This document shows, piece by piece, positions 4,617 to 21,718 of a DNA stretch of 28,686 nucleotides. Within the stretch, counting starts at the first letter, position 1; each line of letters starts with the position of its first letter. This DNA comes from a virus. The stretch spans positions 1 to 28,686 of the IMG/VR virus record IMGVR_UViG_3300009129_000936; one strand, 5' to 3'. Made by a program: the position numbers and the translations under genes. Under the pieces are notes generated by a model. That model made no database searches. It saw only the letters and a list, made by a program, of their open reading frames with translations, and was not told the DNA's origin.

Positions 4617-4958
4617 TTAATCACCTTTTATAATACGATAACTGTCTTCTTCAAAATGTTCTGTAGAAAACTCAAAGAGTTCTGAATCCTCTATGGCTTC
4701 CATTTGGTGACGCAGCCCCGGATAAACATAAAAATTTTCTCCGGGCATCAAAACCAATTCCTTTGCATCCTCCAAGGAGTCCTCATCAGAATATCGAACA
4801 ATCAATTTACCCGACTGCAAATAAAAAGTTTCATCCTTCTCGACGTGATAGTGAAATGAACATTTCTTGCCCTTCTCAAAGAAAAGCAACTTGCCACAAT
4901 ACTGCGGCTTGTTTACAATCCACTTTTCATATCCCCAACCTTTATCAACGTATTTCAT
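4617..4958 (-). CDS. Single-domain cupin, sugar isomerase/epimerase-like
   Basis: The 113-residue protein is one cupin domain. Metal-binding motif 1 reads CSFHYHVEKDETFYLQSG (about residues 33-50: His, His, Glu and Gly as in GX5HXHX3-4EX6G) and motif 2 is PGENFYVYPGLRHQ (about 73-86). The opening GWGYEKWIVNKPQYCGKLL resembles the cupin domain of type II phosphomannose isomerases and related stand-alone cupins. It lies directly downstream of gmd with an ATGA overlap, so a role in GDP-mannose-derived sugar handling is reasonable. It lacks the nucleotidyltransferase half of bifunctional ManC, so it is not a complete GDP-mannose synthase. Substrate is unknown. Confidence 0.82.
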   Translation of the reverse strand: MKYVDKGWGYEKWIVNKPQYCGKLLFFEKGKKCSFHYHVEKDETFYLQSGKLIVRYSDEDSLEDAKELVLMPGENFYVYPGLRHQMEAIEDSELFEFSTEHFEEDSYRIIKGD

Positions 4959-5929
4959 TTAATTGTTTCCATCCAATGCCCAATCATTTCATCCATTAGA
5001 GATTCAAATGAATAGGTGGGACTCCACCCCAAGGCACTTCTAATTTTCGTAGAATCTCCCCTCAAATATTTGAGTTCCTCTGGTCGCAAAAACTTTTCAT
5101 TTTGAAATACAAAATCTTTATAGTCCATGTCCAACTGAGAAAATACATAATCACACATCTCTCGTACAGAATGAGTTTCTCCAGTCGCCACAACAAAATC
5201 ATCTGGCTGCGTATGATTTAAAATTAAATTCATCGCATTAACATAATCTTTAGAATGTCCCCAATCTCGATATGAATCCATATTACCAAGCTCTAATTTA
5301 TCGAGCAATCCTTTTTTAATTTGAACGGCTGCCTTAACCACTTTATTTGTAACAAAGTTTGACCCTCGACGTGGTGATTCATGATTAAACAAAATACCAT
5401 TCGATGCAAATAAATTATAGGCATTACGATAATGTCGAACTATATTGTACCCAAATACCTTGGCGCAACCATAAGGACTAACTGGATTCATTGGCGTAGT
5501 TTCTCTTTGATAATCATCCTCATCTATAGAATTGCCAAACATTTCAGAAGACGATGCCTGATAAAATCTGGCATTTGGACAATTTTGCCGATACGACTCC
5601 AACATATTAAGAACACCAAGAGCATTCGTTTGCGTAGTAAACTCTGGAATATCAAAACTGATTCTCACATGACTTTGGGCAGCAAGATTATAAATTTCAT
5701 CTGGCTGAATTTGTTTCAACAACCTATCTATAGAAGATGGATCTAAAAGATCACCATAGTCTGTAGTAATAAAAGACTCAATATGATCTATGCGACTTTC
5801 TTGATGTTCAGGAACAGAATTTCTTCGCGCAATTCCATATACTTTATAATCCCTTTCCAATAAAAGTTCTGCCAAATAACTTCCATCCTGACCATTAATA
5901 CCCGTAATAAATGCCTTTCTTTTATCCAT
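4955..5929 (-). CDS. gmd: GDP-mannose 4,6-dehydratase
   Basis: Gmd converts GDP-D-mannose to GDP-4-keto-6-deoxymannose, the precursor of fucose, rhamnose, perosamine and others. The 324-residue protein has the NADP(H)-binding TGINGQDGSYL (9-19), the ARRNS segment typical of Gmd (35-39), SSSEMFG (126-132), the catalytic Y153-x3-K157 pair (SPYGCAKVFGYN) and the ESPRRGSNFVTNKV block that shapes the mannose site. Length is slightly under the usual 340-370. Start is the ATG at 5929, overlapping the DegT-like gene by 8 bases. Next steps could be the adjacent DegT-like protein (transamination at C4, giving a perosamine-type sugar) or a reductase not seen here. Confidence 0.95.
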   Translation of the reverse strand: MDKRKAFITGINGQDGSYLAELLLERDYKVYGIARRNSVPEHQESRIDHIESFITTDYGDLLDPSSIDRLLKQIQPDEIYNLAAQSHVRISFDIPEFTTQTNALGVLNMLESYRQNCPNARFYQASSSEMFGNSIDEDDYQRETTPMNPVSPYGCAKVFGYNIVRHYRNAYNLFASNGILFNHESPRRGSNFVTNKVVKAAVQIKKGLLDKLELGNMDSYRDWGHSKDYVNAMNLILNHTQPDDFVVATGETHSVREMCDYVFSQLDMDYKDFVFQNEKFLRPEELKYLRGDSTKIRSALGWSPTYSFESLMDEMIGHWMETIK

Positions 5930-6515
5930 CTTTAAACAACTCCATTTCTTTTAAATTAGGCCAATCGGCAATTTTCCATTGACGAGGTTTAGTTTCAATT
6001 GCAGTTGGAAGTTTTTTAAGTCCAAGAGTTGCACCTTCTGGAGTCATATAATAATGATACCCCATTGAATTAATATTTTGTTCTCTCCAAGGAACATTTG
6101 GATTTCTTCCGTCATAGGACATTTTTTTAAGTTCGTTTCTTGCTTCTTTACTGTCTGTTAAAATCATTCCACCACGACCCAAACTTAAATGCTTCTGAAA
6201 CTGAAAACTTAAACACATATATGTATTTGGAATATAACTATCTCGTTTCCACAAAACAGCAGCATCAATAATATCATCTGTTAAATAATAATAATCTACC
6301 CAATCCTCTTCTTTCCACTTTAATCCAATTCCCAACTTACTAGCTAACATAGGAATTGAAACATATGTTCTATAAGGAACCCAAATTTTTTTTGCTTCTC
6401 TATATCTCAAACACAATTCAATTGCATGAGTACAACAGTCCACAGCAACAGCATATGGCGAACCAAAAAATTCTGCAATTTCGTTTTCAAATTTTTCGAC
6501 CACACTAAAACTCAC
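5922..6515 (-). CDS. Miniature DegT/DnrJ/EryC1-type aminotransferase homologue
   Basis: The DegT family makes amino sugars with PLP. This 197-residue protein corresponds to the large PLP domain only; typical members have about 370-390. The expected PLP lysine is K108 in LSFQFQKHLSLGRGGMIL, with the pyridine-binding Asp likely D84 (IIDAAV). The usual MNYRMxxxQAAxGLxQL element survives as YHYYMTPEGATLGLKKL. It then ends where the C-terminal small domain should begin. Start is a GTG at 6515 with an AAGGA site 9 bases upstream and a GTGA overlap with the cupin gene. It sits beside gmd, so a GDP-4-keto-6-deoxymannose aminotransferase or a sugar-binding relic are both possible. A paralogue lies at 13976-14599. 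Confidence 0.8.
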   Translation of the reverse strand: MSFSVVEKFENEIAEFFGSPYAVAVDCCTHAIELCLRYREAKKIWVPYRTYVSIPMLASKLGIGLKWKEEDWVDYYYLTDDIIDAAVLWKRDSYIPNTYMCLSFQFQKHLSLGRGGMILTDSKEARNELKKMSYDGRNPNVPWREQNINSMGYHYYMTPEGATLGLKKLPTAIETKPRQWKIADWPNLKEMELFKDG

Positions 6516-6925
6516 TCTATAAATTCCTTGTCCTTCTTTTGCCCTTTATATGGGCCTGTCTTATATTCGTAAACCAATGTTCCATCTTCTAGACATTCAT
6601 AGTTATGACCACCACAAAAAGTCAAAGAACAGTCTCCCACATTTAATATTTCTGTGGCAATAATGGAATTATCTAAATCATACATTATAACTTTAACACT
6701 TCCTCTAAGCACAACCCAAGATTCTTGGGCAATAACTTCTTCTTCTCCAGACTTCCATATATGCCTATGGGGGCGAAAGGTCTTTCCCTTTTCCATATTC
6801 AATGCGGACAACTGAATAAACTGATTTTCTGGCGCAATATCAGTTCTTCCGGGTGAAATATCGTCCAGCCTATTGATTGCGTGTAGTAACGTGTCTGGGT
6901 TAACTTTTGAATAAATTTTATGCAT
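6512..6925 (-). CDS. Cupin-fold protein of the glycan cluster
   Basis: The 137-residue protein shows a cupin pattern: KGKTFRPHRHIWK (metal-binding His pair), AQESWVVLRGSVKV (Glu and turn Gly), and LTFCGGHNYE for motif 2. The C-terminus YKTGPYKGQKKDKEFIE is characteristic of a WbuC/WxcM-like cupin family seen in O-antigen and phage glycan clusters. These proteins act as ketoisomerases, epimerases or simple sugar-binding partners. It is placed directly upstream of the DegT-like gene and downstream of an FkbM methyltransferase, both with overlaps of a few bases. A role as 3,4-ketoisomerase feeding the aminotransferase would fit but is not shown. Confidence 0.75.
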   Translation of the reverse strand: MHKIYSKVNPDTLLHAINRLDDISPGRTDIAPENQFIQLSALNMEKGKTFRPHRHIWKSGEEEVIAQESWVVLRGSVKVIMYDLDNSIIATEILNVGDCSLTFCGGHNYECLEDGTLVYEYKTGPYKGQKKDKEFIE

Positions 6926-9118: not shown

Positions 9119-9943
9119 TTACCTCGGCTTGCTCATATTATATATCTCTTGATAAAAACTATCATTCTGTAAATCATCTAATGTTACTGCATATGTTCCA
9201 GACTTCTGCACAGCAATTTCCGAACACCAATTCGCAAAGCCTATTGCCTTTGGAATATCTCTGTTTAACAAATAATCAACAACAAGCCCTGCCAAGAAAC
9301 TATCCCCGGCACCAGATACGTCAAACACGTCTACTTTTCTAGCCGGATAAATTTTATCATTCCACTTTGCTCCGCGTTCTCCTAAAGTTATAACTAACTC
9401 ATAATCTTTTGGTGGGGGAAATTCCATTATTGAATTTAATTCTATTTCATTAATTTTAATAATAGAATGATTAAAGCAAGACAAATCCTTTTTCTTAGAA
9501 TCAACAAAGATTAAACCAGAAAACTTAGAAGTTAATTCATTGACGACATCATAACTAACAAATCCTTTTTCATAGTCCGAAATAACTATGGCATCATATT
9601 CTTCTAACCGAACATCATTTAATGAAAAAGAAGAACTAACTAATTCTTCTCCAGAGTCCACTCTTAAAAATTGTTGTCTGGATTTTTCATCAACATAACG
9701 CTCTTTAGCAATACGATTATTGTTGGTTACAAAATCACAAGACAAACCCAAGCCATTAAGATTGGCCTTTACATTTGCCGCCATTCCGGGGTATTCTTTT
9801 GTTTTTTTAATGTTTAATACCGGAACTGGAGCCTCTGGACTTATTCGATCACAGGTTCCATAATGATACTTGTCAATACAGGAATCACCTATTAGCAATA
9901 CTTTGAATAGTTTTAGTTGTTGAGTATCCATCAATTCGCTCAA
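9119..9943 (-). CDS. HldE kinase-domain homologue (heptose-7-phosphate kinase-like, PfkB family)
   Basis: In bacteria the HldE kinase domain phosphorylates heptose 7-phosphate at C1 in ADP-heptose synthesis. This 274-residue protein has the typical start LLIGDSCIDKYHYGTCDRIS (17-36), then PEAPVPVL, GMAANV (53-58, GGAANV in HldE), and the PfkB signature DVSGAGDSFLAGLV with catalytic D214. It is about 40 residues shorter than the HldE kinase half, mostly in the middle. The start is a TTG at 9943: AAGGAGG lies 9 bases upstream, whereas the ATG at 9931 is too far from it. It overlaps the adenylyltransferase gene by 59 bases. Gene order (adenylyltransferase then kinase in transcription order) is opposite to the fused HldE. 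Confidence 0.86.
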   Translation of the reverse strand: MSELMDTQQLKLFKVLLIGDSCIDKYHYGTCDRISPEAPVPVLNIKKTKEYPGMAANVKANLNGLGLSCDFVTNNNRIAKERYVDEKSRQQFLRVDSGEELVSSSFSLNDVRLEEYDAIVISDYEKGFVSYDVVNELTSKFSGLIFVDSKKKDLSCFNHSIIKINEIELNSIMEFPPPKDYELVITLGERGAKWNDKIYPARKVDVFDVSGAGDSFLAGLVVDYLLNRDIPKAIGFANWCSEIAVQKSGTYAVTLDDLQNDSFYQEIYNMSKPR

Positions 9944-10283
9944 AAAATTTTACCTCCTTTGCATACTCACTTCCAATTACAGGTTTGCCTTTCCAATCTG
10001 AACCAACCACCAATATATCTGGCTTCATTGATTTAACAAGATCAGTCAAGCCTTCTGTATCTTTAAAAGAACATACACCATCTATGTATTTAATACTCCA
10101 TAGGGCTCGCATTCTATCTTCCAAAGAATTAATAGGACGATCTTCCCCCTTATCCTTTTTTACTTTCTCGTCTGAATCGACTCCAACATACAAAACATCG
10201 CCTAAAGATTTAGCATAAGTAAATAACTCAAAATGACCTCGATGTAAAATATCAAAACACCCATTGGTAAAAACAACTTTCAT
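9885..10283 (-). CDS. HldE adenylyltransferase-domain homologue (heptose-1-phosphate nucleotidyltransferase-like)
   Basis: This 132-residue stand-alone cytidylyltransferase-like protein corresponds to the C-terminal half of HldE, which forms ADP-heptose from heptose 1-phosphate. The motifs are TNGCFDILHRGHFELF (6-21, with the HxGH signature at 14-17), VGVDSDEKVKKDKG (33-46), RP (49-50) and YSTTKTIQSI (120-129), which matches the G-x-STT element of HldE. TagD-type glycerol-3-phosphate cytidylyltransferases share the HxGH core but end in RTxGISTT. The ATG at 10283 overlaps the preceding gene's stop (ATGA). Together with the kinase it makes a split HldE. Confidence 0.87.
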   Translation of the reverse strand: MKVVFTNGCFDILHRGHFELFTYAKSLGDVLYVGVDSDEKVKKDKGEDRPINSLEDRMRALWSIKYIDGVCSFKDTEGLTDLVKSMKPDILVVGSDWKGKPVIGSEYAKEVKFFERIDGYSTTKTIQSIANR

Positions 10284-10975
10284 TCATATATCCTTTTTAC
10301 GTCTAATTTTATTTGCTCAACTCTATTGATTGGACCGGACTCAAAAATACCACCTCCAGCATAATGAATTATATAAGAATCAAATCTATTTTTATTTCCA
10401 TGCCACGGCTCTGAAAACATTGCCATATGATTAAATTTATAACCTAAATTATGAAGTTGAAAATTATTTTTTTTAATGTTATATCCTAAATGAACATCAT
10501 CATAACCATAATCCAACCAATACTCTCCATTTATATGCTCAAAAATAATTTGATGTTCTTCTGATACAACAAAAGCTCCAGTATTAATATAATCCTTTTC
10601 CCATCCAACATCACCAAAAAATTCTTGTGATTTTTTAATCCTTTTACGACGAGCTTCTTCCCTACTTCCAGCATCTTCTAAACAAGATCCTATTTTATCT
10701 TTAGGAACCTCATCAAAAATATTAGGACACCAAGGCAAAATTAAAGTATCAGTATCAATACAAAACACTCTTTCATAGGTATCTAATAATTCCTTTAAAT
10801 GCATAATTCTATAATGAATAGGACCAAGCCCCAAGACTCCACCCGGAACATCAAAATTTTTATCTAATACAACAAAATCCATATCATACTTTAAAGCATA
10901 ATCTTTCATATAAGGATGTGTAATGGAACTCATTTCTACAATATTAGAATCACATCTAGTCACCAAAGCATTCAT
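10280..10975 (-). CDS. Glycosyltransferase with DTD motif (GT8/GT34-like)
   Basis: The 231-residue protein starts LVTRCDSNIVEMSSITHPYM and reaches a DXD site in VFCIDTDTLIL (70-80), as in retaining nucleotide-sugar transferases of the GT8 or GMA12/MNN10 type. Later elements are YINTGAFVVS, which matches the xNxGxxxx strand of GT8 enzymes, and HYAGGG near the end. I chose the ATG at 10975, which overlaps the upstream methyltransferase stop (ATGA) and has an AAAGGA site; an upstream in-frame start at 10999 lies inside that gene. Family assignment within GT8/GT34 is uncertain. Confidence 0.75.
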   Translation of the reverse strand: MNALVTRCDSNIVEMSSITHPYMKDYALKYDMDFVVLDKNFDVPGGVLGLGPIHYRIMHLKELLDTYERVFCIDTDTLILPWCPNIFDEVPKDKIGSCLEDAGSREEARRKRIKKSQEFFGDVGWEKDYINTGAFVVSEEHQIIFEHINGEYWLDYGYDDVHLGYNIKKNNFQLHNLGYKFNHMAMFSEPWHGNKNRFDSYIIHYAGGGIFESGPINRVEQIKLDVKRIYE

Positions 10976-11697
10976 TGCAATCTTTCCTTTGGAACACAAA
11001 GATATTCCCCCCCAGTAGAAAATCCATTACATCTCATATCAAAGGGGCGAAAAATAAAATAATCCAAATTACTAAAAGTTTTAAAATCAAACCCCCCATC
11101 TTCAGGCTCAACAAAACCAGGATACCCGTCAAACTTAATATCATTTTCCCTATGATAACCAATTTGCCAAATTGGTCTTACGGCCTCTAAAAGATCAGTC
11201 ATTCCAAATAATGCTACCGTCTCCATTCCCTCAATATCCATTTTAACAAAACTAGGAAAAGCCAAATTATTTTCCTTTATATAATCATCTAAAACAACAT
11301 AAGAAATGTCTCTTGGAGTTGCTGGATAAATGTCGGTACAATCATTAAATTGAGTAAACACATTATCCTCTTTATTACTAACTGCAACACAATGAGTAGA
11401 AATATTACTATATGGGGCAACATTAACATTTAATCTTTTGTAATTGTCTGGAAATCCTTCAAAAGCAATTACGCTCATCCCTTCTAACGCCATCGGAATA
11501 GAAAAAGTTCCTATGTAGGCCCCAAGATCATAAACTACATCACCAAGATTTAATAGCCTCAATAAAGGATCAAAATTATGATCGGACCTATTATATAAGG
11601 TACCATTTAAAATATTGGCATCCATATTATGACCCTCTTCCAAAAGATTAGAAAAAGAAATTTCATGGTGATTATAAAAAATTGTACTAGTTTTCAT
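10972..11697 (-). CDS. FkbM-family methyltransferase (copy 3)
   Basis: The 241-residue protein has motif I VYDLGAYIGTFS (55-66), the acidic FEGFP element (79-83) and the hallmark FVKMDIEGMETVALFG (150-165), with D154 and E156 in the FkbM D(I/V)EGxE position. Translation begins at the ATG at 11697 after an AAAGGA site. Its gene overlaps the next glycosyltransferase by four bases. The long C-terminal extension beginning near IWQIGYHREND differs from copies 1 and 2, so acceptor specificity has probably diverged. Confidence 0.86.
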   Translation of the reverse strand: MKTSTIFYNHHEISFSNLLEEGHNMDANILNGTLYNRSDHNFDPLLRLLNLGDVVYDLGAYIGTFSIPMALEGMSVIAFEGFPDNYKRLNVNVAPYSNISTHCVAVSNKEDNVFTQFNDCTDIYPATPRDISYVVLDDYIKENNLAFPSFVKMDIEGMETVALFGMTDLLEAVRPIWQIGYHRENDIKFDGYPGFVEPEDGGFDFKTFSNLDYFIFRPFDMRCNGFSTGGEYLCVPKERLQ

Positions 11698-11699
11698 CT

Positions 11700-12347
11700 T
11701 TATTCCTTTAAAAGTTTAAAAAGTTTTTCGGCAACCAAAAAGTCAAATTCAGTATCAATATCAACAGATTCAATTTCATCTAAAACTTTAAAGTGCGGCG
11801 TATCAGTTACAATATTTTTATATTCCAATAAATCATTTCTTCCAATTAAACACACACCATAAGTTATAGCATATATGTTTGGCAAATCCTGACTGTTAGG
11901 AGAATTTCTAATATCGTAATTTAAAGGTTTATCATTCAACCATAAATGATGCTTAACCGGCGAAACCGTAACTACATTATCACAGGCATTAAAAACATTA
12001 ATACATTCATTATAAGTTTCAAGAGAAATAAAGGGACAAGTAACCGGACTGTACATAATATTTTCTGAATTGGAAACACTTCCCAAGTTTTCAAAAAATT
12101 CAGAATTGGTTGCCGTTGAACTCGCAAAGTATTCTTCTCGTTGATGGCAAACTACTCCCATCTTTTTAGCAATTTCTAACATCTTTTCACAATCTGAACT
12201 AACAACAATTTCAGAAATTCCAGAAACTTTTTTAAGCTGCTTAATCTTCAACTCCAAAAGAGAAGACTCTCCAAATGGTCTTATGTTCTTATTTTTAACT
12301 CGTACCGATCCCTTTCTTACAGGAACTATAGCAGTAATTTCTTTCAT
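11700..12347 (-). CDS. CMP-sugar synthetase (acylneuraminate cytidylyltransferase family)
   Basis: These enzymes activate nonulosonic acids or Kdo with CTP. The 215-residue protein has the nucleotide-binding N-terminus TAIVPVRKGSVRVKNKNIRP (5-24), matching IPARxGSKxxxxKNI. EIVVSSDCEKMLEIAKKMGV matches the IVVSTDDxxI step, and the C-terminus has IDTEFDFLVAEKL, the DxDTxxDLxxAE element near the end of NeuA-like proteins. Start is taken as the ATG at 12347, overlapping the preceding stop (ATGA). No NeuB-type synthase is in the window, so the acid sugar must come from elsewhere in the genome or the host. NeuA versus PseF/LgiF or KdsB-like specificity is not decidable. Confidence 0.86.
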   Translation of the reverse strand: MKEITAIVPVRKGSVRVKNKNIRPFGESSLLELKIKQLKKVSGISEIVVSSDCEKMLEIAKKMGVVCHQREEYFASSTATNSEFFENLGSVSNSENIMYSPVTCPFISLETYNECINVFNACDNVVTVSPVKHHLWLNDKPLNYDIRNSPNSQDLPNIYAITYGVCLIGRNDLLEYKNIVTDTPHFKVLDEIESVDIDTEFDFLVAEKLFKLLKE

Positions 12348-13330
12348 GATATTTTGTTCAAAACCTCTTCCCAATTATTATTAAATTCAATTGCCTTATC
12401 GTCAATATAAAAACTTGCTCTGGGCTTCTCATGTGTTATCTCAGATATGTACTGTCGGATGTCATGCTTTCTCAACCACTCATCAACCAATTCATATCCT
12501 GTTTTCCCATTAACTAATGGACGGTCTGGCTTTACCTTGGCAGTAAATATTATTAGATTCCATTTTTCTGATAACTTCTTTACTGCCTCGATTGATCCAC
12601 CAATAGGTTCTCCATAGCAAGTTCCATCATGCCACCCTTTATCAAAAGTATGAATAACTCCATCAAAATCAATTGCCAAATTATTAATTTGACTGTCCAT
12701 TCCGGGCGGAACATCTTTATCTGAAACTTCAAGCTCTGATTCTATTCCCAAAAGCTCAAATCTTCTTTCTCTAGTTTTCTTAGAAATAGTTGGACAATTA
12801 TGCCCTGACCCTTGAATCAATTCATAAGTAAGAGCCAAAGACAACAATTCAGAAGTATGATAATATTCTGCGTCTTGAACAATTTGTATTACGTTATCTT
12901 CAATCGAATTTTGTTTTTGTGTTGCTGCAATCAAAAAACTTTTAATCCCATTTTTGGCTGACCAATTTAATGCAGTAAGAATAGAATCAGAAGAGGCCCC
13001 AATTGTAGAACATGAAAATCCAACAACTAAACATTTAGACAAATCCAAATACTGCGTTCTCATCTCTAGCCAATGCATTAACCAATCATTAAAATTAGTG
13101 TCTCCTTGAATTGAAGTTACAAGAACTCCACCGCCGGGAGCTTGAACATCTTTATCAGTAAGCCTTGATGAATCTATTGCCGCGTGTTCAGCAATTGCCA
13201 TATTTCCACCATGCCCAAAATAAAAAATAGTATCTGCAAAATTAAATGCATCTTGAAGTTGTTGAAATTCAGGAGTACCAATTATATGACGCAACTTCGA
13301 TTCATAATTTTCAATTTCTAATTTCATCAT
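12344..13330 (-). CDS. SIS domain-HAD phosphatase fusion (possible GmhA-like/GmhB-like pair)
   Basis: This 328-residue protein joins two domains. Residues about 10-180 form a SIS sugar-isomerase domain resembling phosphoheptose isomerase (GmhA): FYFGHGGNMAIAEHAAIDSS (36-55) and VVGFSCSTIGASSDSILTAL (102-121). Residues about 216-328 form a HAD phosphatase: LAIDFDGVIHTF (218-229, nucleophile D221 and acid D223), IIFTAK (260-265), K302 in EKPRASFYIDD (301-311) with D310/D311. This HAD type is common in phages. GmhA's catalytic Glu appears as Asp53, and its late His is not obvious, so isomerase activity is uncertain. With the kinase and adenylyltransferase nearby, the fusion could supply the isomerase and phosphatase steps of ADP-heptose synthesis. 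The ATG at 13330 follows GAGG by 6 bases. Confidence 0.82.
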   Translation of the reverse strand: MMKLEIENYESKLRHIIGTPEFQQLQDAFNFADTIFYFGHGGNMAIAEHAAIDSSRLTDKDVQAPGGGVLVTSIQGDTNFNDWLMHWLEMRTQYLDLSKCLVVGFSCSTIGASSDSILTALNWSAKNGIKSFLIAATQKQNSIEDNVIQIVQDAEYYHTSELLSLALTYELIQGSGHNCPTISKKTRERRFELLGIESELEVSDKDVPPGMDSQINNLAIDFDGVIHTFDKGWHDGTCYGEPIGGSIEAVKKLSEKWNLIIFTAKVKPDRPLVNGKTGYELVDEWLRKHDIRQYISEITHEKPRASFYIDDKAIEFNNNWEEVLNKIS

Positions 13331-13979
13331 TCCTAACCTCTTCAAATATTTTTAATGCAACTGGATTCACAGAAAAAAAGCTAACATCAGGATAATTAAT
13401 ATTTACCCATTCTTTCGTGCAAGCCCAACACTCTATTAAACCACTTCCTTGTGATCCATGAAACTTAGTTCTAAATGTTCCATTAGAATAATCACAATCA
13501 TGGCCCACCAAATATATTTTTTTAATTCCAGAATATAAAACAAACTGTAAGGCTTCAAATGCAATTGTAGCACCAGACCACAAAGGAGCCATTGAAATGT
13601 CCTTTTTAATTTTACATTCTATCCATGCAGGAACATCATCGAGATCACATGGATAATATTTTGCATACTTCATATTTTTAGGAAGAGCGCCGGGGCAATT
13701 CCAAGTCGGATGTCTAATAAATTTTTGAAGTCTAGGCTTATAGTTATTATAATCATCAAAATGATTTAAAAATTTATTAGGATCTCTTGGAAAAGCATCT
13801 CCCATAAACCAATAATCTAAATCCAAATCTAAATAGATAGATTCGTTCAAACCCACCTTTAGAATATTGGAATCTGCTAAACTAGCATCATATTTTTCAA
13901 TAGACGGACCACACCCAAAAAGAATACAAGATTCCCCTAAATGAATATTTTCATATGGCTTAAATGGATTTTCCATCAT
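13311..13979 (-). CDS. DUF115/GT42-like glycan protein
   Basis: The 222-residue protein opens with CILFGCGPSIEKYDASLAD (18-36), a nucleotide-binding GxGPS loop shared by DUF115 proteins (Maf-like, MptE-like) and GT42 sialyltransferases. It ends in a second strand-loop, KKIYLVGHDCDYSNG (153-167), preceded by SMAPLWSGATIAFEAL, which resembles the GxxxxTxAxxLAxxLGxxxIYLIGxD block of DUF115. Maf proteins transfer nonulosonic acids to flagellin, so proximity to the CMP-sugar synthetase one gene away is suggestive. Starts at the ATG at 13979 (GGAG, 7 bases) in an ATGA overlap with the DegT-like gene. Confidence 0.68.
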   Translation of the reverse strand: MMENPFKPYENIHLGESCILFGCGPSIEKYDASLADSNILKVGLNESIYLDLDLDYWFMGDAFPRDPNKFLNHFDDYNNYKPRLQKFIRHPTWNCPGALPKNMKYAKYYPCDLDDVPAWIECKIKKDISMAPLWSGATIAFEALQFVLYSGIKKIYLVGHDCDYSNGTFRTKFHGSQGSGLIECWACTKEWVNINYPDVSFFSVNPVALKIFEEVRNDEIRN

Positions 13980-14599
13980 AAAATAACTCCACAATTTTTA
14001 AAAACTGTAAATTCAGTCAAATCTCTATATCCACCAACTTCTTTCACATCTTTATTATGCTCAGGATATTGTTGCATTAATGAAAGACCCACAGCAGCTT
14101 GTTGTGGCGTCATATACATATTCCACCCCAACATATCAATATCATCATCGCTGTAATACTTTTCGCTTCGACCTTCATATCTAGCTTTTTTAAACCAATT
14201 ATATGCATCCAAACTGTCGCATAGAATCATACCTCCCTTAGATATGGGTAAAGCCTTTTTCATATGAAACGATAGACACATAAAAGTTCCCGGCATATAC
14301 ATTTTGCTAGTTAACCTTTTTGCAGAATCATAAATTGGATAGGGTTTCAATTGATATATTCCAGACCAATTATTAGTAAAATCCCTTTTGTCAAACACAA
14401 CCGTTCCCCCAGCATGAATTATTGATTGGGGGACAGACAAATATGTTTTTGAAGGAATCGTTACAGCTTCAACATTTAAATATTTACAACACAAAAATAA
14501 AGCATTAGTACAGCTATCAACAGATACTGCATATTTAGCCCCAGTATATTGCTGAAGTTCTTCCTCAAACATTTTCACTATTTTAAAAGGATTGTGCAT
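13976..14599 (-). CDS. Second miniature DegT/DnrJ/EryC1-type homologue
   Basis: This 207-residue protein is a clear paralogue of the one at 5922-6515: shared landmarks are EExxxYTGAKYAVSVDSCTNAL (AVAVDCCTHAI in the other), PSKTYLSVP (PYRTYVSIP), IYDSAK with D91, FMCLSFHMKKALPISKGGMIL with the expected PLP lysine K115, and MYMTPQQAAVGLSLMQQY. It also ends where the small domain of full-length DegT proteins should start. Parallel conservation of lysine and aspartate in both copies argues for a selected short form rather than a decayed gene. The ATG at 14599 has only a weak ribosome-binding site (GGTGG). Role is probably amino-sugar formation. Confidence 0.8.
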   Translation of the reverse strand: MHNPFKIVKMFEEELQQYTGAKYAVSVDSCTNALFLCCKYLNVEAVTIPSKTYLSVPQSIIHAGGTVVFDKRDFTNNWSGIYQLKPYPIYDSAKRLTSKMYMPGTFMCLSFHMKKALPISKGGMILCDSLDAYNWFKKARYEGRSEKYYSDDDIDMLGWNMYMTPQQAAVGLSLMQQYPEHNKDVKEVGGYRDLTEFTVFKNCGVIL

Positions 14600-21642: not shown

Positions 21643-21718
21643 TGGTAGGCTCGGCGGGAATTGAACCCGCGACATCCACCTTATAAGGATGGCGCTCTAA
21701 CCCCTGAGCTACGAGCCA
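21643..21718 (-). tRNA. tRNA-Ile (anticodon UAU, reads AUA)
   Basis: A full cloverleaf of 76 bases is visible: acceptor arm TGGCTCG/CGAGCCT with a T-T mismatch at position 1-72, D-stem GCTC/GAGC, anticodon stem CCATC/GGTGG, loop CTTATAA with anticodon TAT, T-arm GCGGG/CCCGC with TTCAATT loop, discriminator A and encoded CCA. U34-A35-U36 reads AUA isoleucine codons, which are likely common in the A+T-rich phage genes. An A+T-rich hairpin GTTTAAT-TTA-ATTAAAC (21743-21727) lies between it and the RuvC-like gene. Bacteria usually decode AUA with a lysidine-modified CAU tRNA, so this is a phage-supplied alternative. Confidence 0.95.

Follow-up and report, generated by a model that had tools for sequence, protein, structure and literature searches.

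SIS-HAD fusion proteins and CMP-sugar synthetases in a marine phage glycan cluster

The described systems closest to the locus analysed here are the pathways to cytidine monophosphate (CMP)-activated 3-deoxy-D-manno-octulosonic acid (Kdo) and 2-keto-3-deoxynononic acid (Kdn), the adenosine diphosphate (ADP)-heptose pathway, and sugar genes reported from ocean phages. The locus lies in a 28.7-kb marine viral fragment (IMG/VR record IMGVR_UViG_3300009129_000936, positions 1 to 28,686), the whole of which we call the window, and includes a gene whose product joins a SIS domain to a HAD phosphatase domain (SIS-HAD). A sequence-only reading had combined this fusion with an HldE-type kinase and adenylyltransferase into one pathway. 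Because the SIS-HAD travels with CMP-acidic-sugar enzymes in other phages, the four domain genes are probably not one heptose pathway. We think it rather likely that the interval holds two sugar-activation modules, of which the one with the SIS-HAD (module B) makes and uses a CMP-activated 3-deoxy-ulosonic acid, either of the C8 Kdo type or of the C9 Kdn type.

The CMP-Kdo pathway (KdsD-KdsA-KdsC-KdsB) has the same order of enzyme kinds, namely SIS isomerase, condensing enzyme, HAD phosphatase and cytidylyltransferase, and KdsA is found on the contigs of two SIS-HAD relatives. The phage system differs from it in the fusion of SIS and HAD, in a GmhA-like SIS, in a cytidylyltransferase nearer to NeuA/PseF than to KdsB, and in the condensing enzyme, which is mostly an HpcH/HpaI pyruvate aldolase or was not found. 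In the CMP-Kdn pathway of Bacteroides thetaiotaomicron and Prymnesium, a NeuB-type phosphoenolpyruvate (PEP) synthase acts on mannose 6-phosphate (PMC6200933). There too, a phosphosugar is condensed, dephosphorylated, and then activated by a NeuA-type CMP synthetase (PMC6200933), whereas NeuB is present in just 2 of 49 SIS-HAD contigs.

With the ADP-heptose pathway (GmhA, HldE, GmhB, HldD) and the cyanophage rfaE/HldE-type module (P-SSM2, SynMITS9220M01; PMC7378029), the window shares a kinase, a nucleotidyltransferase and a cupin, all members of the phage module. Unlike the SIS-HAD set, that module has no SIS in phages, and carries a small separate HAD and a cupin. HldE-type modules are known in both cyanophages and pelagiphages (PMC7378029, PMC7029224). 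Finally, excerpts of one report describe an ocean phage genome with Gmd, WcaG, ManC, NeuA, KdsA and WaaG (PMC5332604). It resembles the phages studied here in having NeuA- and KdsA-type genes for surface polysaccharide, but these excerpts do not mention a SIS-HAD fusion, an aldolase or a partner with a sialyltransferase fold. No description of a block of SIS-HAD, CMP synthetase and aldolase was found in the open-access literature.

The genes of the two modules in the window are as follows.

12344-13330, minus strand: SIS-HAD fusion; N-terminal GmhA-like SIS domain (about residues 1-190), C-terminal C0-type HAD phosphatase domain (about residues 215-328)
11700-12374, minus strand: NeuA/PseF-like CMP-sugar (ulosonate) synthetase, CTP_transf_3 (PF02348, TIGR03584, NeuA structure matches)
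13311-13994, minus strand: predicted CMP-sugar glycosyltransferase with a GT42/Maf-like sialyltransferase fold (AlphaFold model and Foldseek)
9885-10283, minus strand: HldE domain-II-type nucleotidyltransferase of the separate module (TIGR02199 at E 6.9e-38, below the NCBI curated cut-off; phrog_7878; HxGH motif)
9119-9943, minus strand: HldE domain-I-type PfkB kinase of the separate module (TIGR02198 at E 1.2e-43, below the NCBI curated cut-off; phrog_8133 at E 6e-84)
4617-4958, minus strand: small cupin, phrog_7851 'cysteine dioxygenase', a conserved partner of the phage HldE-type pair

Conserved partners of the two modules

Using the SIS-HAD sequence as the only query, loci were reduced to 49 non-redundant viral SIS loci. 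The contigs of the relatives are fragments. The linkage scans used exact peptide patterns and the best 80 hits, with thresholds of our own, and an absence in them is not proof. A CMP synthetase lay within 6 kb of the SIS in 44 of the 49 loci, and in 37 of the 39 whose flanks extend 6 kb or more in each direction. Within the same distance we found an HpcH aldolase in 14 loci, an SDR in 11, the nucleotidyltransferase in two, and the HldE kinase in none (0/49). As a control, none of ten HAD-only viral loci had a CMP synthetase.

The HldE-type pair keeps other company. Among 68 non-redundant viral HldE-kinase loci, the nucleotidyltransferase was within 1 kb in 66, and within 6 kb the small cupin was present in 59 and a small separate HAD in 25; neither a SIS nor a CMP synthetase was recovered at any of them (0/68). 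In P-SSM2, S-CAM3, S-T4 and S-SSM7, whose genomes are complete, the HldE-type module is present and a SIS protein is not detectable. Where both modules share a contig (L014, L015, L019, L024 and L177 in our numbering), they are more than 7 kb apart and each has its own HAD. In L008, L019 and L024 the SIS and the HAD are separate overlapping genes, with the CMP synthetase still following them, and a small HAD of its own accompanies the HldE module.

The SIS-HAD thus belongs with the genes for a CMP-sugar synthetase and a CMP-sugar transferase fold. In the sample examined, the window is the only sequence in which an HldE kinase and a SIS-HAD are no more than 6 kb apart, and it apparently holds both modules by juxtaposition. 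The sequence-only reading was correct that all four domain types (SIS, kinase, HAD and adenylyltransferase) lie inside 4.2 kb on one strand, and its open reading frames (ORFs) are confirmed. The proposal that the SIS-HAD performs steps one and three of the ADP-heptose route is not supported, since each module is conserved with partners of its own and elsewhere the two almost never lie within 6 kb of each other. The separate HAD of each module on shared contigs, and complete cyanophages that have the HldE-type module and no detectable SIS, also speak against it.

The neighbours of the SIS-HAD form recognizable blocks. A contiguous block of GT29, CMP synthetase, HpcH aldolase and SIS-HAD was present in L147, L151, L159, L163 and L172, and a block of cupin, SDR, CMP synthetase and SIS-HAD in L146, L150, L153 and L156. 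In 14 loci the HpcH/HpaI pyruvate aldolase is directly upstream of the SIS-HAD, and every catalytic residue that a class II pyruvate aldolase should have is present in it and invariant. Across the 49 SIS-HAD contigs the condensing enzymes were this aldolase (14), KdsA (two, full-length PF00793) and NeuB (two), never two on one contig. GT29, known chiefly as a family of eukaryotic sialyltransferases, was encoded on 20 of the 49 contigs, compared with none of 14 control genomes. Cellular parallels come from a Pelagibacter contig of a metagenome-assembled genome (L043), with HAD, HpcH aldolase, epimerase, CMP synthetase and an MptE-like gene in that order, and from a Prochlorococcus contig (L048) with a SIS, an inositol-monophosphatase-like phosphatase, an HpcH aldolase and a CMP synthetase.

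Examples of marine-phage GT29 genes are L147:2506-3237, L151:7931-8668, L159:3437-4294, L163:7938-8678 and L117:9247-9975. Phage KdsA genes (on two contigs) and NeuB genes (one located, two in all) from genomes that likewise encode a SIS-HAD are at L276:744-1448, L277:791-1507 and L278:572-1399. NeuB, present on only two of the 49 contigs and standing in L169 next to a second CMP synthetase, was rejected as the usual partner. At L048:6925-7533, L167:9434-10051 and L171:11576-12232, the place of the aldolase or SDR beside the CMP synthetase is taken by a gene of the fumarylacetoacetate hydrolase family (L167 by sequence resemblance only). A HAD fused to a sugar nucleotidyltransferase (L031:11573-12943 and relatives) recurs near the CMP synthetase or SIS-HAD block. 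HAD-only relatives with 59-68% identity (L038-L041, L183-L195) directly follow a larger cupin, and at L188:9313-13235 such a relative is followed by two thiamine pyrophosphate-enzyme (E1-like) subunits and a DegT aminotransferase. These HAD-only and cupin loci would form another sugar pathway built on the same phosphatase.

The SIS-HAD protein and its CMP-sugar neighbours

The SIS-HAD gene starts with an ATG at 13330, with GAGGTTAGG just before it, and the earlier assignment of a SIS and a HAD domain to a single chain (12344-13330) was correct. The SIS domain is resolved by relatives, profiles and fold, and not by single-sequence searches. Alone, the SIS part of the window protein had no Pfam match at 1e-3, and Pfam, NCBIfam and PDB searches returned nothing useful for it. 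The whole protein did not reach the GmhA NCBIfam model at 1e-3 (the relative in L031 scored 34.6 bits against a cut-off of 209), and tblastn against isolated phages gave distant HAD-only matches and nothing else. The SIS domain of relatives, in contrast, matches PF01380 (E 1.5e-5) and TIGR00441 gmhA (E 1.8e-8), and a profile of the 41-member SIS-HAD family found GmhA in the PDB (best E 2.4e-7). In the AlphaFold model (mean predicted local distance difference test, pLDDT, 85) the SIS part superposes on GmhA 5i01 with a VIA Z score of 19.8 and a root-mean-square deviation of 2.4 over 164 residues. GmhA and DiaA fill the top ranks, with Z 18.9 for Escherichia coli DiaA and 15.8 for KdsD. The modelled structure therefore points to the SIS fold of the GmhA/DiaA subfamily.

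The GmhA metal and catalytic set (His61, Glu65, Gln172 and His180 in E. coli numbering) is incomplete in the SIS-HAD family. The His is kept in all 41 sequences and the Glu is replaced by Asp in all 41. The Glu to Asp change that the sequence-only reading placed at residue 53 is thus real and a trait of the family. No variation was seen at His47 (the position of GmhA His61), at Glu159 or at the phosphate-loop serines. The HAD part, which matches phrog_1238, keeps the DxD, Lys and DD motifs in 41 of 41 relatives, with Thr at the motif II position in the window. It has one Cys in the whole domain, no GmhB-type zinc Cys/His loop, and no match to the GmhB models of NCBIfam.

The CMP-sugar synthetase (11700-12374), which the first reading had overlooked, is encoded between the SIS-HAD and the HldE genes. 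It matches PF02348 (E 1.2e-13) and TIGR03584 (E 3.8e-18), and its family profile finds NeuA structures in the PDB at E 5.9e-36 and KdsB at 2.4e-8. Among 19 sequences R17, K21, N22 and D197 are invariant and D199 nearly so; the N-terminal motif for binding cytidine triphosphate and the DxD metal motif are both present. The upstream neighbour of the SIS-HAD gene (13311-13994) shows only a weak MptE-like sequence match in Pfam. Its AlphaFold model (pLDDT 76, predicted template modelling score 0.82) gave 13 Foldseek matches at E≤1e-3, all of them sialyltransferases, and VIA Z scores of 12.7 to Maf and 11.2 to CstII. Its product is therefore a predicted CMP-sugar glycosyltransferase with a GT42/Maf-like fold.

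Proposed pathway and its alternatives

An isomerase, a condensing enzyme, a phosphatase, a CMP synthetase and a CMP-sugar transferase make up the parts list for a CMP-3-deoxy-ulosonate, hence our interpretation of module B. The domains, their active-site motifs and their linkage were read from sequence or fold, and from these we infer the reactions, their order, the substrates and the use in a glycan. The SIS domain would convert a ketose phosphate to an aldose phosphate, to which a pyruvate- or PEP-condensing enzyme (the HpcH/HpaI aldolase or KdsA in relatives) would add three carbons. For the window phage, the host or an unsequenced part of the phage genome would supply this enzyme. The HAD domain would then take off the phosphate, the NeuA-like enzyme would join the acid to CMP, and the sialyltransferase-fold protein would move the CMP-linked acid onto a surface glycan. 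With SIS and HAD fused, the first and third steps would take place in one chain.

If this is true, phages supply the greater part of the enzymes that make a sugar of the sialic-acid or Kdo kind, together with its transferase, and glycans of the host or the virion would change in charge and in their identity as receptors. It would also mean that ulosonate synthesis may be entered through a pyruvate aldolase, and that bacterial viruses are a reservoir of GT29. More tentatively, and with some doubt, marine phages may have an undescribed self-contained route to CMP-3-deoxy-ulosonic acid, in which the SIS-HAD works with an HpcH/HpaI-type aldolase replacing the PEP-dependent synthase, and GT29- or GT42-like transferases decorate the host or virion glycan.

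Several observations weigh against a CMP-ulosonate role. None of the ORFs examined in the window is an aldolase, KdsA or NeuB, and any of these was present on only 18 of the 49 relatives' contigs, many of which are fragments. The SIS is closest to GmhA and not to KdsD, so that a heptose-phosphate substrate is possible. Its isomerase activity is only predicted: as the sequence-only reading had noticed for the late His, the late His/Gln pair of GmhA has no clear counterpart, the late-helix alignment being ambiguous, and Gln occupies position 171 of the window protein, against His in 38 of the 41 relatives. Moreover, SIS matches fill the fold-search list of the SIS-HAD model, leaving the HAD part without a ranking of its own.

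The single ADP-D-glycero-D-manno-heptose pathway of the first reading, with SIS-HAD, HldE-type kinase and adenylyltransferase, draws on the same GmhA-like fold, on the four domain types within 4.2 kb of one strand, and on the lack in the window of the small separate HAD found beside the HldE pair of many phages. We regard it as improbable, given that kinase and SIS were not found within 6 kb of each other in either survey, that a CMP synthetase lies inside the interval, that the HAD has a single Cys without GmhB zinc motif or model match, and that complete cyanophages run the HldE-type module without a SIS. A milder version, in which a SIS-HAD of CMP-module origin also supplies the ADP-heptose route of the window phage after loss of the small HAD, would explain why that HAD is missing although kinase, nucleotidyltransferase and cupin are present, and agrees with the GmhA-like SIS. 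It too seems unlikely: kinase loci without the small HAD are common, one having been detected within 6 kb at just 25 of the 68, phosphatases of the host could take its place, and the window may be incomplete. There is little probability, too, that the SIS domain binds a phosphosugar in a regulatory manner, as in DiaA or RpiR-type proteins, and positions or gates the HAD phosphatase instead of acting as an isomerase. The Asp at the catalytic position in all relatives, the lack of a clear late His and the close superposition on DiaA would fit such a role. Yet an active site is suggested by His47, Asp51, Tyr155, Glu159 and the phosphate-loop serines, which show little or no variation among 41 sequences with identities as low as 38%, and separate SIS genes persist beside HAD and CMP synthetase.

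The HldE-type module and the wider glycan cluster

The split HldE of the earlier reading is HldE-type by profile, and the pair is a real and known phage module. The kinase has the motifs RISPEAPVPV and GAGD, and its best PDB match is the heptose-7-phosphate kinase 4e84 (E 5e-22). Together with the cupin, the two genes constitute by sequence the known phage ADP-heptose-type pair (module A), with predicted activity. The small cupin weakly matches the D-lyxose isomerase family PF07385 (E 2.5e-4) and may supply the sugar-phosphate isomerase step of this module. The absence of HldD from the fragment was rightly noted: the only epimerase-family gene examined (4955-5929) is GMD-like and scores 29 bits against an HldD cut-off of 275.

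In P-SSM2, the gene PSSM2_311 (L009:9749-10093), annotated as 'phosphoheptose isomerase', matches phrog_1238 and, weakly, EcbF/BcbF. Both this protein and phrog_1238 are HAD phosphatases without a SIS domain. This corrects the PHROG label 'phosphoheptose isomerase' (phrog_1238), on which reports of phage gmhA may rest. The lipopolysaccharide (LPS) of marine Synechococcus WH8102 and CC9311 was reported to be without heptose and Kdo (PMC4515613); therefore, the cyanophage HldE-type genes may have a role other than in an ordinary LPS core.

Both modules are part of a cluster of minus-strand genes from approximately 4.6 to 21 kb (about 16 kb). Besides the four SIS, HAD, kinase and nucleotidyltransferase domains, it contains several glycosyltransferases, FkbM methyltransferases, a GMD, short DegT proteins and cupins. 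Two genes lie between the nucleotidyltransferase and the CMP synthetase.

10280-10999, minus strand: putative glycosyltransferase, GT8-like by eye (tblastn neighbourhood; no Pfam match)
10972-11697, minus strand: FkbM-family methyltransferase (TIGR01444 at E 7.8e-20)

By tblastn neighbourhood, the putative glycosyltransferase is conserved together with the gene at 14633-15445 in L003, L007 and L015. The latter had been taken for a GT9-like gene, an assignment that is weak: it has no Pfam match at 1e-3, no credible PDB match, and only a sub-threshold NCBIfam heptosyltransferase match (E 0.0079). Its identity as a GT9 heptosyltransferase was thus unsupported after the profile-against-PDB and NCBIfam tests. 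Two short DegT-like aminotransferases of about 200 amino acids, roughly half the usual length, are encoded at 5922-6515 and 13976-14599, the former sharing a conserved block with the GMD (4955-5929) and a WbuC-like cupin (6512-6925).

A tRNA-Ile gene with anticodon TAT (21643-21718) lies beside the ribonucleotide reductase region. Because of this tRNA and the class II ribonucleotide reductase, which has 64% identity to its counterpart in Puniceispirillum phage HMO-2011, we place the window phage among the T7-like marine phages.

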